Assembly (NCBI GenBank): GCA_021806885.1 | Contig: JAKAPT010000006.1 | Coordinates: 1 to 41,389 of the forward strand | DNA length: 41,389 nucleotides | DNA from: a bacterium | GTDB lineage: Bacteria > SZUA-79 > Acidulodesulfobacterales > Acidulodesulfobacteraceae | Direction of reading: 5' to 3' | Part shown: in pieces, positions 33,979-41,389 of the stretch | How the letters are laid out: each line of letters opens with the position of its first letter | How positions within the stretch are numbered: position 1 is the first letter of the stretch | Program-made: the position numbers and the translations under genes | The notes under the pieces: model-generated | Databases searched by the model: none | Seen by the model: only the letters and a program-made list of their open reading frames with translations | What the model was told of the DNA's origin: nothing

Positions 33979-34461
33979 TCAGCAGTTGCCTTTTTGAATA
34001 TTTCTCGGGGAAGTGTCTTTAAGACAGGTATTTTGTTTCTGGGAATATTCGTTAATTACGTCGGCCACGGTAATGGAATTAAGAAGCTGGGCAATCTTCG
34101 TTGAAATAGAATTCCACATATCGAACGCAAGGCATATGGATTTTCTCTCGCAGTTTTTGTTGCTCCTGGTTTTGCTGCCCATGCAGTCGACGATTTCTAT
34201 CGGCTCTACGGCCTTAATTATATCTCCTATCAATATCTCCGAGGGTTTCCGGTTTAACAGGTATCCGCCGTTCGGTCCCCTTACGCTTCTTACGATGGCC
34301 GATTTTTTCAGGGTAAAGAATATCTGTTCCAGGTAATGGATGGAAATAGATTCTCTATTCGCGATTTCCTTAAGGCTTACGGGCAAGCGATTATTTCCGG
34401 AATAATATGATAAATCGATTATTGCCCTTACGGCGTATTGTCCCTTCGAGGAAAGCCTCAT
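33979..34461 (-). CDS. Rrf2-family regulator, probably Fe-S binding (IscR-like)
   Basis: This 160-residue winged-helix regulator of the Rrf2 family has the DNA-binding domain at about 1-70 ([17 protein letters not shown] ... [13 protein letters not shown]). Three cysteines at 93, 104 and 110 lie where IscR holds its [2Fe-2S] ligands, although the first spacing is longer than in IscR (10 rather than 5 intervening residues). Two more Cys lie near the C-terminus (146 and 160). It is encoded between cysE and iscS, overlapping cysE by 4 bases, so it likely senses Fe-S or cysteine status and controls this operon. CymR-type cysteine sensing is an alternative. Confidence 0.88.
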
Positions 34462-35192: not shown

Positions 35193-36428
35193 CTATTCGT
35201 ATCTCAGGGCCTCGACCGGATTCATCCGCGAGGCTTTATAGGCCGGATAAAACCCGAAAAAGATGCCGACGCAGATTGAAAAAATTATCGAGACGATTAC
35301 GGGAATGATTGTTACTACCGTTTTTAAAGGAGATAATATAGATATCAGGTAGGATATGCCGAAACCGATAAAAATACCGATTATTCCGCCGAACAGGCTT
35401 AGAACCGCGGCCTCGATTAAAAACTGTTGGAGTATGTCCCTCTTCCTTGCCCCAACGGCCATCCTTATTCCTATTTCCTTGGTTCTTTCGGTAACCGAAA
35501 CAAGCATGATGTTCATAATGCCTATGCCCCCGACAAGAAGGGAAATGGTCGCTATGCTGGCAAGCAGTATGGTAAAGGTGGAAGTGCTTTGGTTTGCCGC
35601 GCTTGCTATCTCGGTAAGGTTTCTTATGAAAAAATCGTCCGCCTGCCCTTTCCTGATATGGTGCCTTCTCCTTAAAAGCCTTGTTATTTCAGCCTGGGCC
35701 GTGACTGTTTCTTTAGCCGATTTTGCGGAAACAAGTATCGAGCGGACCCATGTAGTCCCCGCGATTTTAATCATCATAGTGGTAATAGGGATAATAACAA
35801 TGTCGTCCTGGTCCTGTCCGAAGGCGTTAAAGCCCTTCCGCGAAAGGACTCCGATAATTTTAAAGGGTATGTTGTGTATAAGAATAATATGCCCCAGGGG
35901 ATTTATGAGTCCGAACAGTTCCTTTGCGGATGTTTTTCCTATTACCGCCACATTGGACGCGTTAGAAATCTGCGAATGCGTAAAGAAAGCGCCTTCCCCC
36001 ACGGGCCAATCTCTTATTGACGGAAACGTGGAATTAGAGCCCATAATAGTGGTGAACCAGTTGTTGCCGCGCCAGATAACCTGTTCCCCGATTCCTATGT
36101 CCGCGGTTGTGGTTTTTACGGCTTTCTCCTTTCTTATCGCGTATGCGTCCGAGAGGGTTAGCGTAGGCGTGGAAGAAAAGCCAAGCTTTACGCCCCCGTG
36201 AGTTGAAGTTCCGGAAAGTATCACAAGCATGTTGGAGCCCATGGAATTAATAGTCTCCTGTATCGCGTTTGACGCCCCCTGTCCGATTGCCGTGGTCGCG
36301 ATAACCGCTGCCACTCCGATTATTATTCCCAGGGTCGTTAAAAATGACCTGGCCTTGTTTCTCGAAAAGGTTTTGAAAGCGGATTTAAGAGAGAATATTA
36401 CAGCGAGCCAGACCGAGCCGAGTTTCAT
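35193..36428 (-). CDS. MacB-type ABC permease
   Basis: This is the membrane component of a MacAB-like efflux or lipoprotein-type ABC system. The first helix (about 28-50; RSFLTTLGIIIGVAAVIATTAIGQGA) is followed by a large periplasmic MacB_PCD domain, then three C-terminal helices with the FtsX-type pattern VGGIGIMNIMLVSVTERTKEIGIRMAVGARKRDI. The protein ends NPVEALRYE, as family members do. At 411 residues it has no fused ATPase; that is encoded by the neighbouring gene, with a 4-base overlap. The substrate is unknown; tripartite export through the adjacent TolC-type channel is inferred. Confidence 0.94.
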   Translation of the reverse strand: MKLGSVWLAVIFSLKSAFKTFSRNKARSFLTTLGIIIGVAAVIATTAIGQGASNAIQETINSMGSNMLVILSGTSTHGGVKLGFSSTPTLTLSDAYAIRKEKAVKTTTADIGIGEQVIWRGNNWFTTIMGSNSTFPSIRDWPVGEGAFFTHSQISNASNVAVIGKTSAKELFGLINPLGHIILIHNIPFKIIGVLSRKGFNAFGQDQDDIVIIPITTMMIKIAGTTWVRSILVSAKSAKETVTAQAEITRLLRRRHHIRKGQADDFFIRNLTEIASAANQSTSTFTILLASIATISLLVGGIGIMNIMLVSVTERTKEIGIRMAVGARKRDILQQFLIEAAVLSLFGGIIGIFIGFGISYLISILSPLKTVVTIIPVIVSIIFSICVGIFFGFYPAYKASRMNPVEALRYE

Positions 36429-37096
36429 ACCAGTATACCGTCCTTAACGTTGATATGGGTTCTCGCGTAATCGGCGATGTCCGTCTCATGGGTAACGAGT
36501 ATTATCGTTGCGCCCTTTTCTTCATTTATCTTTTTAAAAAAAGACATTATTTCCCGGCTTCTCTCCGAATCAAGATTGCCAGTGGGCTCGTCCGCCATTA
36601 TAATGGGGGCGTCGTTTACGATAGCTCTGGCTATGGCGGTGCGCTGCTGTTCGCCACCCGAGATCTGGTTTGGAAACTTTTTCTCCTTTCCCTCGAGGCC
36701 GACGAGTTTAAGGGCGTCCTTCGCTTTTTCGAGGGATAAAACCGATGGAAATCCCGCGTAAACCAGGGGCAGCTCGGTATTTTCCAGCAGGGACATCCTC
36801 TGGATAAGGTTGAAGCTCTGAAATACGAACCCGATTTTTTTGTTTCTTATTTCCGCAAGTTCATTCTCCGTCAAATTGGAAACATCGAGGCCGTCAAGGA
36901 AATACCTTCCCGACGAGGGCCTGTCCAGGCACCCCAGGATATTCATGAGGGTTGATTTTCCGGAGCCGCTCGCGCCCATGATTGAAACAAAATCCCCGCT
37001 TTTTACCTCCATGCTGATTCCCTTGAGGGCCTCATAATCGACGCCGCCGGTTTTGTAAGTCATTCGGATATTTTCAAGCCTTATTAGTTCTGCCAT
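36425..37096 (-). CDS. MacB/LolD-type ABC transporter ATPase
   Basis: This 223-residue ABC ATPase energises the adjacent permease. Walker A is GASGSGKST, the Q-loop lies in [10 protein letters not shown], the signature is [14 protein letters not shown], Walker B is [13 protein letters not shown], and the switch His is in LVTHETDIA. The sequence class ([17 protein letters not shown] and [22 protein letters not shown]) is that of MacB, LolD and related antimicrobial-peptide exporters. The start is 5 bases after the macA-like stop, and the gene overlaps the permease by 4 bases. Confidence 0.95.
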
Positions 37097-37101
37097 GTCT
37101 T

Positions 37102-38298
37102 TTATAAGAAAAATCCGTGCCGGACGTTTGCGGTCGCGCCTTTTTGTCCTTCGGAAGTGCCGGTGACGACGCTTTCTCCTGCCTTTAATTCACTCGAGGA
37201 AATCTCGGTATAGCTGTCGTTGTTATCCCCAAGTTTGACTATTACGGGAACCGGTTTTGAATCCTTCAATATCCATATCACGCCCTCGCCGGCTTTAATC
37301 TCGTTACCAAGCGCGGATTTTAAAGCAGGGGCAATGTTTCCCGGCATAAATCTCAAAGCTGCGTTCGGAACGGCCAGGGGCACTTTTTTCTGAGAGATAT
37401 ATATCCTGGGCGTCGCAGTCATTCCGGGAAGGATGAGATGGTCCGGGTTGTCAAAAAAGATCGTCACGTTATAACTGACTACCCCGGAGACGATCGTGGG
37501 ATTAATCCTTACGTTATGCACAATTCCGCTGAAGGTCTTATCCGGATAGGCATAAACAGTGAAAGTCGCCTTGTTCCCCTTTTTTATACCGGCCAGGTCC
37601 GCCTCATTAGTGGTAGTGTCTATTTCCATCTTTGAGATATTTTCTCCGATGGTGAAAAGGGTGGGCGTCTGAAAGCTCGAGGCCACGTCCTGTCCGACCG
37701 CCACGTTGACGTTTATAACTACCCCGTCCACGGGCGAGTAAATATTAGTGTATGAGAGGTTGGCCCTGTCTATATTCAACTGGGCCTTATCTTTATCAAC
37801 GACGCTTTTCAGGTATTTTTCCTGCTGAAGGTCTTCCAGATACACGGTTTTTGCCTGCTGTTCCGTGGCATGGGCTATAAGGTTCTCCTTCCATAATTTT
37901 TTATCCCTTAAATATGTTAATTTGTCGAACGCGGTTTGAGAGGCCTGCTTTTTAACGTTTGCCTCATCGGATGCCAGGGTTGCGGTATCGCCGTTCACCT
38001 TGTCCATAAAAGGGGTCGGATCTATTTTCGCGATGAGCTGCCCCTTCTTAACGATGGAGTTATACCATACGTAAATTTTTGAGATTTCCCCCGAAACCTG
38101 GGAGCCTACGGCTACCGTGTTCACGGGGTTTGTCGTTCCGGTGGTGAGAACGGATTTCACGATAGTTTTAGGGCCGAGCTTATATATGCTGTAGGAAGGG
38201 GTTTTATTCGTTGAATTCTTGACCAGAATCCACGATAACGCCCCTAAAACCGCTATGGCGATTGCTATTATCGTGATAACCTTGTTTTTTTTCTTCAT
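37102..38298 (-). CDS. MacA-type periplasmic adaptor (HlyD family)
   Basis: This 398-residue membrane-fusion protein bridges the inner-membrane ABC transporter and the TolC-type channel. An N-terminal anchor (VITIIAIAIAVLGALSWILV) precedes the lipoyl half-motif VAVGSQVSGEISKIYVWYNSIVKKGQLIAKIDP. A coiled-coil hairpin runs over about 105-185, the second lipoyl half is YSPVDGVVINVNVAVGQDV, and beta-barrel and membrane-proximal domains complete the chain. The hairpin is short, as in MacA. It overlaps the tolC-like gene by 4 bases and is 5 bases from the ATPase. Confidence 0.94.
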   Translation of the reverse strand: MKKKNKVITIIAIAIAVLGALSWILVKNSTNKTPSYSIYKLGPKTIVKSVLTTGTTNPVNTVAVGSQVSGEISKIYVWYNSIVKKGQLIAKIDPTPFMDKVNGDTATLASDEANVKKQASQTAFDKLTYLRDKKLWKENLIAHATEQQAKTVYLEDLQQEKYLKSVVDKDKAQLNIDRANLSYTNIYSPVDGVVINVNVAVGQDVASSFQTPTLFTIGENISKMEIDTTTNEADLAGIKKGNKATFTVYAYPDKTFSGIVHNVRINPTIVSGVVSYNVTIFFDNPDHLILPGMTATPRIYISQKKVPLAVPNAALRFMPGNIAPALKSALGNEIKAGEGVIWILKDSKPVPVIVKLGDNNDSYTEISSSELKAGESVVTGTSEGQKGATANVRHGFFL

Positions 38299-39797
38299 TT
38301 TTTCTCCTTGCCGAAATAATGTGAGTAAAGCAAGCCGATATCCGAATAGAGCTTGTCCTTGAGATAATAATAGGTATATTTGGAGTTAATGTAGCTCGTA
38401 AGGCTCGAGATATACTGGGAGTTCGCGGTAACAAGCTGAACCATGGATCCCACCCCCACCTTGTAGCTTTTCAGGGCAAGTTCATAGGCGAGTTTAGAGG
38501 CCTTTTCCGACTGCTTCAGGGCCGCTATCGTAAGGTACTGGCTTTTTATCCCGTAATAATCCTGGGAAATCGTATAGATAAGGTTTTGTTCAGTCAGCCT
38601 CCTGTTCCAGATGGAACTAAAAAGGAGGGCCTTTGACGACGCCACCTTGTTCGTCGTAAGAAACCCGTTGAATATGGGGACGCTTAAGGAAATACCCGCG
38701 GCGTAATTCCTGTTTAACGGGAATACCGAATTTACTCCCGTATATGAAAAACTTGCGCTAAGGGAAGGGTAATAGCCTGTTTTTGCCTCGTTCACGGACG
38801 CTTTTTCGGATTTTACCTCGTATATGCTCTGGAGCAGAAGCGGGCTGTTTTTTAATCCCTTTTTAATGAGGTCGCCAATGTTCTCGTTGAAGCCTCCGGC
38901 CATCAGGGTGTTTACGAATTGATATTTCCCGTTCAGTGGAAGCCCTATAGAATTTATCAGGGCGAGCCTTGAGATTTTTGAATTAAATTTTGAATTTATA
39001 TACTCGGCCCTGGCCGTTTCCATCGATGCTTTTGCCGTTTCGGCGTCCACGAGATTACCCGTGCCGACCCTGTAAAAGGCCTCGGCGGCTTTGTAGGCTA
39101 TTTCATTATTTTTCAGGTTTTCAAGGTCGGCCTTTTCTATCTCGGAATTTTCGAAATACTGGGCAAAATTTAATACCACGTTGTATAGGTCTGAATTTGT
39201 TTCCTGGGAATACGCATATTTCGAAACCTTCATTTGATTGAGGGACGCAAGGTAGGAATAATGCCTGCCCCCAAAAGAATATATGAGCCATGTCGCGTTT
39301 AAATCGGCCTGGTAGTCGTTTATCATATAATTGATTCCCCCGTTATTTTTAAACGTCGGGGGAATGCCCGCGCCTGCTGAGGAAACGCTCATCACCGTTT
39401 CCCTTGAATAAATGCCCCCGGCCGATATCTGGGGAAAGTAATTGTACAGGGTTTCGTTCTTATTGTAAACGGATGAAATATAGGAATATTTAGAAGATTG
39501 TATTCCCGGGTAGTTTTCCAGGGCAAGCCTGAGGGCGGTTTTTAAATCTATTACGGTTATATTTTTTGCCCCGGCAGGGATTTCTTCATTTTTTAAGGGC
39601 TTAAAAGTAAATTCCGATTTTTTATTTTTTATTGGTTTTTTTATTTTGGGTCCGGAGGTTTTTCCCTGCCCCGCGTAAGCGGTTACCCCGGGAGCTAAAA
39701 AGGATAGGGGAAAAAACATCAGGAAAGAAAAAAGAACGACGCGAACCGCTCTTCCGGAAATATCGATTTTAAGTTTCATATGGCTTTTAAACATCAT
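38295..39797 (-). CDS. TolC-family outer-membrane efflux channel
   Basis: This 500-residue outer-membrane factor has a signal peptide (VVLFSFLMFFPLSFLAPGVTAYA) and two OEP repeats of long alpha-helical hairpins (for example YSFGGRHYSYLASLNQMKVSKYAYSQE and ALKQSEKASKLAYELALKSYKVGVGS), typical of TolC. Repeats with GVGSMVQLVTANSQY and GTGNLVDAETAKASM are the family signatures. Its gene leads the operon. Three ATGs are possible: 39797, 39794 and 39779. A promoter places transcription start at the first two, so the mRNA may be leaderless. None has a Shine-Dalgarno sequence. The 4-base overlap with the adaptor gene implies coupling. Confidence 0.92.
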   Translation of the reverse strand: MMFKSHMKLKIDISGRAVRVVLFSFLMFFPLSFLAPGVTAYAGQGKTSGPKIKKPIKNKKSEFTFKPLKNEEIPAGAKNITVIDLKTALRLALENYPGIQSSKYSYISSVYNKNETLYNYFPQISAGGIYSRETVMSVSSAGAGIPPTFKNNGGINYMINDYQADLNATWLIYSFGGRHYSYLASLNQMKVSKYAYSQETNSDLYNVVLNFAQYFENSEIEKADLENLKNNEIAYKAAEAFYRVGTGNLVDAETAKASMETARAEYINSKFNSKISRLALINSIGLPLNGKYQFVNTLMAGGFNENIGDLIKKGLKNSPLLLQSIYEVKSEKASVNEAKTGYYPSLSASFSYTGVNSVFPLNRNYAAGISLSVPIFNGFLTTNKVASSKALLFSSIWNRRLTEQNLIYTISQDYYGIKSQYLTIAALKQSEKASKLAYELALKSYKVGVGSMVQLVTANSQYISSLTSYINSKYTYYYLKDKLYSDIGLLYSHYFGKEKK

Positions 39798-39801
39798 TTA
39801 T

Positions 39802-39829
39802 ATTATAATACACACCTGGCTTATATCAA
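39802..39829 (-). promoter_or_regulatory. Proximal promoter P2 of the tolC-macAB operon
   Basis: On the minus strand TTGATA (39824-39829), 16-base spacer, TATAAT (39802-39807). The predicted start is near 39795, overlapping the paired ATGATG start codons, so RNA from it would be leaderless. Confidence 0.65.
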
Positions 39830-39883: not shown

Positions 39884-39912
39884 ATTCTAATGACTTTAAA
39901 GTCATTTGTCAA
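39884..39912 (-). promoter_or_regulatory. Distal promoter P1 with an 18-bp palindrome in the spacer
   Basis: On the minus strand a perfect TTGACA (39907-39912), 17-base spacer and TAGAAT (39884-39889) form a strong sigma-70-type promoter reading toward tolC. The perfect palindrome AATGACTTTAAAGTCATT (39889-39906) fills the spacer and touches the -10. A dimeric repressor bound there would exclude RNA polymerase; a MerR-type activator would need a longer spacer. The rimO start is 21 bases away on the other side, so rimO may be affected too. Confidence 0.7.
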
Positions 39913-39926
39913 TAAATATCATTACC

Positions 39927-41389
39927 ATGCCGATTTATTTTAATTTAATAAGCCTCGGATGTCCCAAAAACCAGGTAGATTCGGAGGTTATGTTCACAAA
40001 TCTTAAAAGAAGGGGTATAAGGTTTACCCCGGATATCGAGAAAAGCGACGCGTGCGTCATAAATACATGCGGGTTTGTGGAGGCGGCAAGAAAGGAGTCC
40101 ATCGAGACAATCATGGACGTGGTGCGGCAGAAAATGGAGGGAGGGCCCAGATATATCGCCGTTACGGGATGCCTTGTCAACAATAACCTTGCACGGCTTA
40201 AAAAGGAAATTCCGGAGGTAGATATATTTCTTCCGTCTTTTGATGAAGACAGGATTGCCGAAGAATTATTGAAAAAGGCGGGAAGACCGCACCGTGAAAA
40301 GGCATGCGTCAAGTCCGCGATTAAACCTTTTGAAAGGGAGCATTTTAACCTTAAATCAACCGCGTATCTTAAAATATCCGAAGGCTGCGACAGGACCTGT
40401 TCTTTCTGCGCAATTCCCGGAATAAGGGGAAAATACCTATCGAGGCGTATCGAAGAAATCATAAAAGAGGCGGGGTATCTCTCGGGCGCCGGGGTGAAGG
40501 AATTAATCCTGGTCTCTCAGGACACCTCGTATTACGGCACCGATTTGAATATGAAAAACGGGCTATACAGGCTCTTAAAGGAGCTTGTTAAAATAAAGGA
40601 TATTAAATGGATAAGGCTTATGTACCTTTATCCGTTAAAATCATTATTTAGTGATGACCTTCTCTCCCTCGTAAACAACGAAGAGAAAATACTGAAATAT
40701 CTTGACATTCCAATCCAGCATATTTCGGATAACGTTTTAAAGGCGATGAAACGGGGCTCAAGTAGAAAAAATATAATAAACCTGATCGAAAGGCTCAGGA
40801 ATAACATAAAGGATGTTTCGCTCAGGACTTCTCTTATAGCGGGTTTCCCGGGAGAGACGGAGGGGGATTTTAACGAGCTGCTTTCCTTCGTGAGGGATGC
40901 TGAATTCGACCATCTCGGGGTTTTTAAATATTCGGACGAAAAAGCCTCGCCTTCCCACAGGTTAGGGGGCAAGGTAAAATTTTCCGTGAAAAACGAGAGG
41001 TATAAGGAACTTATGCTGGCGCAGGCAGGCGTTCTCGGAAAAATTTTTTTAAAGCGTAAAGAAAAGAAATATAACGTTATCGTCGACAGGATTTCTGGGG
41101 GGTATATAACCGCGAGGGGATATTTCCAGGCCCCTGATGTCGATGGATATATATTTATTCCCGCCACTGATTTAAAAACTCGCCGCTCCCTTTTTCCCAC
41201 GGAAGCTTTTGTCCCCGTAAAGATTATAAAACAAAAGGGATATGACCTTATCGGCTCCCTGGATGGCACGTGGTATGAACATACTTACCACCCTGTCTCG
41301 ATTTTAACATATCTATTACCCCGTATAAATAATTTAAGCGGCCAAGCCACTCAACCCCGGTACCCAGCACCCTTAAAACATCTTCCATA
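39927..41389 (+). CDS. rimO: Ribosomal protein S12 methylthiotransferase RimO (runs to window end)
   Basis: This radical SAM enzyme modifies Asp of ribosomal protein S12. It is missing from the ORF track because no stop occurs before the window ends. The N-terminal domain shows LISLGCPKNQVDSE, INTCGFVEAARKES and VTGCLVNNN; the radical SAM motif is SEGCDRTCSFCAIPGIRGKY, followed by LVSQDTSYYG, MYLYP and AGFPGETE. CPKNQ-VDSE and the GIRGKY box identify RimO. A TRAM domain ends with KGYDLIGS near residue 445, the normal end of the family; about 40 further residues remain open. ATG 39927 has no ribosome site. Confidence 0.92.
   Translation, partial: MPIYFNLISLGCPKNQVDSEVMFTNLKRRGIRFTPDIEKSDACVINTCGFVEAARKESIETIMDVVRQKMEGGPRYIAVTGCLVNNNLARLKKEIPEVDIFLPSFDEDRIAEELLKKAGRPHREKACVKSAIKPFEREHFNLKSTAYLKISEGCDRTCSFCAIPGIRGKYLSRRIEEIIKEAGYLSGAGVKELILVSQDTSYYGTDLNMKNGLYRLLKELVKIKDIKWIRLMYLYPLKSLFSDDLLSLVNNEEKILKYLDIPIQHISDNVLKAMKRGSSRKNIINLIERLRNNIKDVSLRTSLIAGFPGETEGDFNELLSFVRDAEFDHLGVFKYSDEKASPSHRLGGKVKFSVKNERYKELMLAQAGVLGKIFLKRKEKKYNVIVDRISGGYITARGYFQAPDVDGYIFIPATDLKTRRSLFPTEAFVPVKIIKQKGYDLIGSLDGTWYEHTYHPVSILTYLLPRINNLSGQATQPRYPAPLKHLP

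Follow-up and report, generated by a model that had tools for sequence, protein, structure and literature searches.

Control of efflux pumps by TetR-family repressors is a well-known kind of system, and the switch considered here is, as such, an ordinary one. Repressors of multidrug pumps of the AcrR/MtrR/CmeR type have a TetR_N domain and a palindromic operator that overlaps the core promoter, and they regulate efflux genes as well as themselves; all these traits have counterparts in the system predicted here. The TetR protein of the present genome, however, lies far below the model cut-offs of AcrR and MtrR, and here a single TetR, the only one of its genome, apparently serves ABC, RND, and MFS pumps in five operons per genome. 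The closest fold to its predicted model is that of Bacillus FadR (3WHB/3WHC), an acyl-CoA sensor, with a TM-score of ∼0.8, and FadR also gives the best PDB sequence matches. Yet the identity of FadR to TetR is 24-26%, the FadR model is matched at 83 bits against a cut-off of 200, and the regulon found here is one of efflux and not of fatty-acid degradation.

The third-best PDB match is SbtR of Thermus thermophilus HB8 (TTHA0167, PDB 3VUQ), a member of the TetR/AcrR family, which has the helix KGTIYLYF.DK in common with our TetR. The consensus of SbtR from in-vitro selection is TGACTGGCCAGTCA, mutation has its strongest effect at the G and at the last T of TGACT, and the predicted targets include transport genes (PMC4948773). 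The half-sites and spacing, TGACT-N4-AGTCA, are the same in both systems, whereas the central four bases differ from those of the operator described here, the SbtR targets are only partly transporters, and no similar multi-pump regulon was reported there for SbtR. As SbtR and TetR have ∼30% identity over the first 103 aligned residues, and FadR scores higher, we do not claim orthology. The pump operon at which the analysis started is comparable to the MacAB-TolC macrolide exporter.

The tolC-macAB operon and its promoter

The window, i.e., the whole stretch of 41,389 bp that was analysed, carries the following features near its right end.

35193..36428, minus strand: MacB-like permease (MacB_PCD and FtsX; domain profile match)
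36425..37096, minus strand: MacB-like ABC ATPase (domain profile match)
37102..38298, minus strand: MacA-like periplasmic adaptor (HlyD families; RND_mfp over its cut-off; MacA model at 1.1e-49 yet below its cut-off)
38295..39797, minus strand: TolC-family outer-membrane efflux protein, OEP (PF02321, 9.6e-48)
39802..39829, minus strand: candidate promoter P2, TTGATA-16-TATAAT (11/12 match; unconserved, unproven)
39884..39889, minus strand: -10 box TAGAAT of the tolC-macAB promoter P1 (TATNAT in relatives)
39889..39906, no strand: putative palindromic operator AATGACTTTAAAGTCATT, core TGACTTTAAAGTCA at 39891-39904 (conserved in 17 loci)
39907..39912, minus strand: -35 box TTGACA of P1 (∼99% conserved over 17 loci)
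39927..41387, plus strand: rimO-like radical-SAM gene, the divergent upstream neighbour of tolC (frame still open at the window end)

The operon holds the complete component set of MacAB-TolC (an OEP, an HlyD-type adaptor, a MacB ATPase, and a MacB_PCD/FtsX permease), but MacB is divided here into two genes. The name MacAB-like is used because the curated equivalogs score below cut-off: MacA reaches 169.5 of 342 bits, and the two parts of MacB reach 235 and 267.5 of 966 bits. Past the permease gene follow genes for a serine acetyltransferase, an Rrf2 regulator, and a class V aminotransferase. The rimO of the window is without an obvious Shine-Dalgarno sequence.

The preliminary description had placed a promoter TTGACA-17-TAGAAT, with a palindrome in its spacer, in front of tolC-macAB, and our coordinates agree: TTGACA (39912-39907), a 17-bp spacer (39906-39890), and TAGAAT (39889-39884) on the minus strand match the sigma-70-type consensus at 11 of 12 positions. 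The sequence AATGACTTTAAAGTCATT is a perfect 18-bp palindrome that occupies this spacer, its end base being the first base of the -10 box, and no second copy of the exact 18-mer exists in the genome of 1.38 Mb. By itself the palindrome is weak evidence, because ∼0.16 perfect 18-bp palindromes (41389/4^9) are expected in a window of such size.

The stronger argument is its conservation. The comparison set comprised 29 relatives, all of the same family and from five genera other than that of the window (30 genomes with the window's own), and 17 loci from genera g1, g4, and g6, counting that of the window, have the palindrome in the rimO-tolC intergenic region. The tolC genes of these loci are only 51-68% identical and the remaining intergenic DNA is unconserved, while agreement with the majority base (read toward tolC) reaches ∼99% over the operator core and -35 box, 85% over the -10 box, and 55-58% over the flanks; a lack of conservation of the palindrome had been named beforehand as one of two observations that would refute the preliminary reading. 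Genus g3 (L037) has at the same promoter position of the rimO-tolC intergenic region the variant TTGACAAATGACCTTAAGGTCATTACAAT / TGACCTTAAGGTCA, TGACC..GGTCA, with two symmetric substitutions, one per half-site, that preserve both palindrome and spacer. No operator was found at the rimO-tolC(-macAB) locus of genus g2, though g2 has the TetR gene. A chance palindrome devoid of function, for which the expectation of ∼0.16 per window might be cited, is practically ruled out by this conservation in diverged relatives, and the family-wide site counts given below point the same way. Several g6 genomes also carry, between promoter and gene in the intergenic regions L031, L032, L035, L108, and L110, an inverted repeat of the type GGGGACAGAATT...AATTCTGTCCCCGT, which is probably a mobile repeat element.

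It had further been proposed that a second promoter lacking the palindrome lies downstream, and a good match, P2, is indeed found in the window ∼54 bases beyond the -10 box of P1, its strength being reached by none of 300 shuffles of the same stretch. In 15 of the 17 orthologous loci, however, the best match in that stretch is at shuffle level, and P2 was dropped as a conserved second promoter. The predicted P2 transcription start falls at about the annotated ATG of tolC, so its use would need an alternative ATG at 39779. The idea of a two-promoter arrangement is thus weak.

Putative operator sites across the family

A search of the 30 family genomes for the core TGACT-N4-AGTCA gave 139 matches, with 2-7 in each genome, whereas the reversed pattern used as control gave 6. 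When 109 distinct core sites were annotated for their neighbouring genes, 105 were found to adjoin an efflux gene or one TetR gene; of the other four, three lie within coding frames (L142, L154, and L187) and one near a contig end (L188). The targets are OEP/TolC genes (50), TetR (24, plus L096 and L105, where the TetR start codon had been called too far upstream), an MFS transporter (18), RND adaptors that diverge from an OEP gene (13), and DHA2/EmrB-type MFS pumps (11), counts which overlap as many sites are common to divergent genes. In cluster C04 (L166, L177, L178, L184, L189, L197, L199, L200, and others), we noticed a gene for a protein with ferritin-like and formate/nitrite transporter domains, which is divergent from the putatively operator-controlled MFS gene in g2, g4, and g6.

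The window's own genome has exactly five exact core sites, each at the promoter of an efflux gene or of the sole TetR-family gene:

Site 1: tolC-macAB (window)
Site 2: RND system (C29)
Site 3: TetR with DHA2 pump (C47)
Site 4: OEP-HlyD system (C62)
Site 5: MFS gene divergent to an Hdr-like iron-sulphur gene (C30)

Nine further sites with one mismatch all lie in long open coding frames and none fits a promoter; they were therefore rejected as extra members of the regulon, and the five exact sites are distinct from this background.

The geometry of the sites is equally regular. At 50/50 OEP promoters and 24/24 TetR promoters, the operator lies in fixed register inside a 17- or 18-bp spacer flanked by recognisable -35 and -10 boxes (at least 9/12 matches); in flanking DNA, 0.7% of positions pass the same test. 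At the MFS promoters (C02), the operator is placed over the -35 box instead of in the spacer, the box being the operator's own TTGACT in 18/18 cases. A dimer at either position would be expected to exclude RNA polymerase.

The sole TetR as candidate regulator

That no regulator gene adjoins the operon, as the preliminary description had stated, holds true: the nearest one, encoding the Rrf2 protein (33979-34461), lies beyond the operon. This protein was rejected as the regulator, since no Rrf2 gene adjoins any other site and TetR fits better. The TetR gene (G000:C47:13108-13740, minus strand, 211 aa) is on a contig other than that of the window and, by profile search, encodes the only TetR_N protein of the genome. 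Its product has an N-terminal TetR HTH domain (PF00440, 3.1e-17, 62.5 bits against a cut-off of 24) and, in the predicted model (pLDDT 84), an all-helical TetR fold with a C-terminal ligand domain, the best PDB matches being TetR proteins at a TM-score of ∼0.8; no named NCBIfam equivalog was reached. Orthologues with 52-62% identity are present in 25 other family genomes and a fragment in one more, the three genomes without a match being 85-86% complete. With these incomplete ones aside, TetR is kept in all family genomes.

The exact core lies upstream of TetR in 25 of 26 genomes, the window's included, and with one mismatch in the 26th. In g1, g4, and g6 the TetR promoters are mostly TTGAAT- or TTGTAT-[operator]-TATAAT, the same geometry as in the window. 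An M16 peptidase gene, a gene for a 189-aa protein, the operator, and TetR follow one another in conserved order, but the pump behind TetR is swapped between genera, being a DHA2 MFS in g1 and g6 and an RND system in g2, g3, and g4; the exchange can be seen at L145, L158, L162, L168, L173, L185, L084, and L088, where TetR, operator, and upstream genes are unchanged. Among the orthologues, the region of the recognition helix, AKGT[VI]Y[LI]YFK, hardly varies. In L094-L098, L101, L102, and L104-L106, the TetR ATG follows TATAAT by ∼7-17 nt, hence the mRNAs are probably leaderless or nearly so.

Beyond the family, 80 TetR genes were fetched from named genomes, and TGAC[TC]N4[AG]GTCA lies within 350 bp upstream of 14 of them, against 0/80 for the reversed control. 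Three of the 14 belong to the own family and 11 to others, among them Acidobacteria, WOR-3, Syntrophobacterales, and Bacillota. Taken with the helix and half-sites shared with SbtR, this means that the operator class goes with TetR proteins of such kind. The distant genes with the upstream motif are L207, L210, L211, L212, L216, L218, L221, L225, L227, L231, and L239, and two of these (L211 and L225) have two motif copies 20 bp apart.

Mechanism, alternatives and significance

We consider it about 90% probable that a TetR-family repressor, which also regulates its own gene, has the palindrome as its operator and acts in trans on all five pump operons by blocking RNA polymerase. A TetR dimer would bind TGACT-N4-AGTCA. 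As the operator takes up the whole P1 spacer, RNA polymerase should be unable to engage the tolC-macAB promoter while the dimer is in place. Further targets of repression would be the regulator's own operon (TetR plus the DHA2-type MFS pump) and those for the RND system, the OEP-HlyD system, and a further MFS transporter. Simultaneous release of all operons would come from an inducer, probably hydrophobic, that binds in the C-terminal domain. What can be read from the genomes themselves is the conservation of the operator, its position in promoters, the regulon, its place before the regulator gene, and the status of that gene as the only TetR of the genome. Physical binding, release by an inducer, and repression rather than activation (deduced solely from geometry) are what we infer. 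Of the preliminary description, a repressible efflux promoter under trans control is supported, with the sole TetR, preceded by the core in 25/26 orthologues, as well-supported candidate regulator; its two-promoter arrangement is weak, and it had missed the set of five operators, one of them at the regulator itself.

Palindromes of such size are used by several regulator families, and a regulator of another family, e.g., of the MarR type, could bind the sites with the operator of the TetR gene being merely another target. We hold this to be quite improbable, as TetR is the only regulator in the gene clusters beside the 109 sites, SbtR shares the recognition helix and selects identical half-sites, and distant TetR genes bear the same motif. 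Sites of the CRP/FNR type read TGTGA-N6-TCACA and TTGAT-N4-ATCAA, and such a site was rejected because the half-site spacing here, TGA-N8-TCA, differs. That the operator mainly serves rimO and lies in the tolC promoter incidentally has some appeal, because rimO is the divergent neighbour in the 17 loci and 11 of these have a weak promoter match toward rimO whose -35 box is the operator's ATGACT. The operator, however, remains at tolC-macAB where the divergent gene is Hdr-like (L083) or encodes an HD/OB-fold protein (L085), all other sites are at efflux genes or TetR, and g1 and g4 show no conserved rimO -10 box, which makes this reading highly unlikely.

Just as slight is the chance that a bound protein activates P1 in the MerR manner by twisting the spacer. 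MerR-type promoters do carry the operator between their two boxes, but they have spacers of 19-20 bp, whereas the spacer is 17 or 18 bp at 74/74 promoters here and the MFS promoters have the operator over the -35 box. Moreover, no activator is needed, because the -35 and -10 boxes are near consensus. A palindrome without function is left with negligible probability, since 17 diverged loci have it in the same position and the 139 sites stand against 6 control sites.

The network under the proposed TetR repressor is unusually clean, is notable for the number of pumps that one protein seems to cover, and is apparently undescribed; text searches of the open-access literature found no description of the regulon. 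What was a bare palindrome can now be placed in a defined regulon for which a regulator is proposed, and this in a lineage represented here by draft genomes alone. The recognition helix KGT[IV]YLYF.DK is linked to the operator TGAC[TC]-N4-[AG]GTCA, which recurs before TetR genes in other phyla, and this link helps in predicting targets of uncharacterised TetR proteins. Regarding the inducer, the FadR-like fold of the predicted model is only a hint. It is conceivable, though we regard it as rather unlikely, that one FadR-like TetR is the master switch of all major efflux classes, ABC, RND, and MFS, throughout this family of uncultivated bacteria and is induced by fatty-acyl-CoA or a similar membrane-derived or organic-acid signal. 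If so, pump output in these bacteria would track membrane or acid stress and not a drug.
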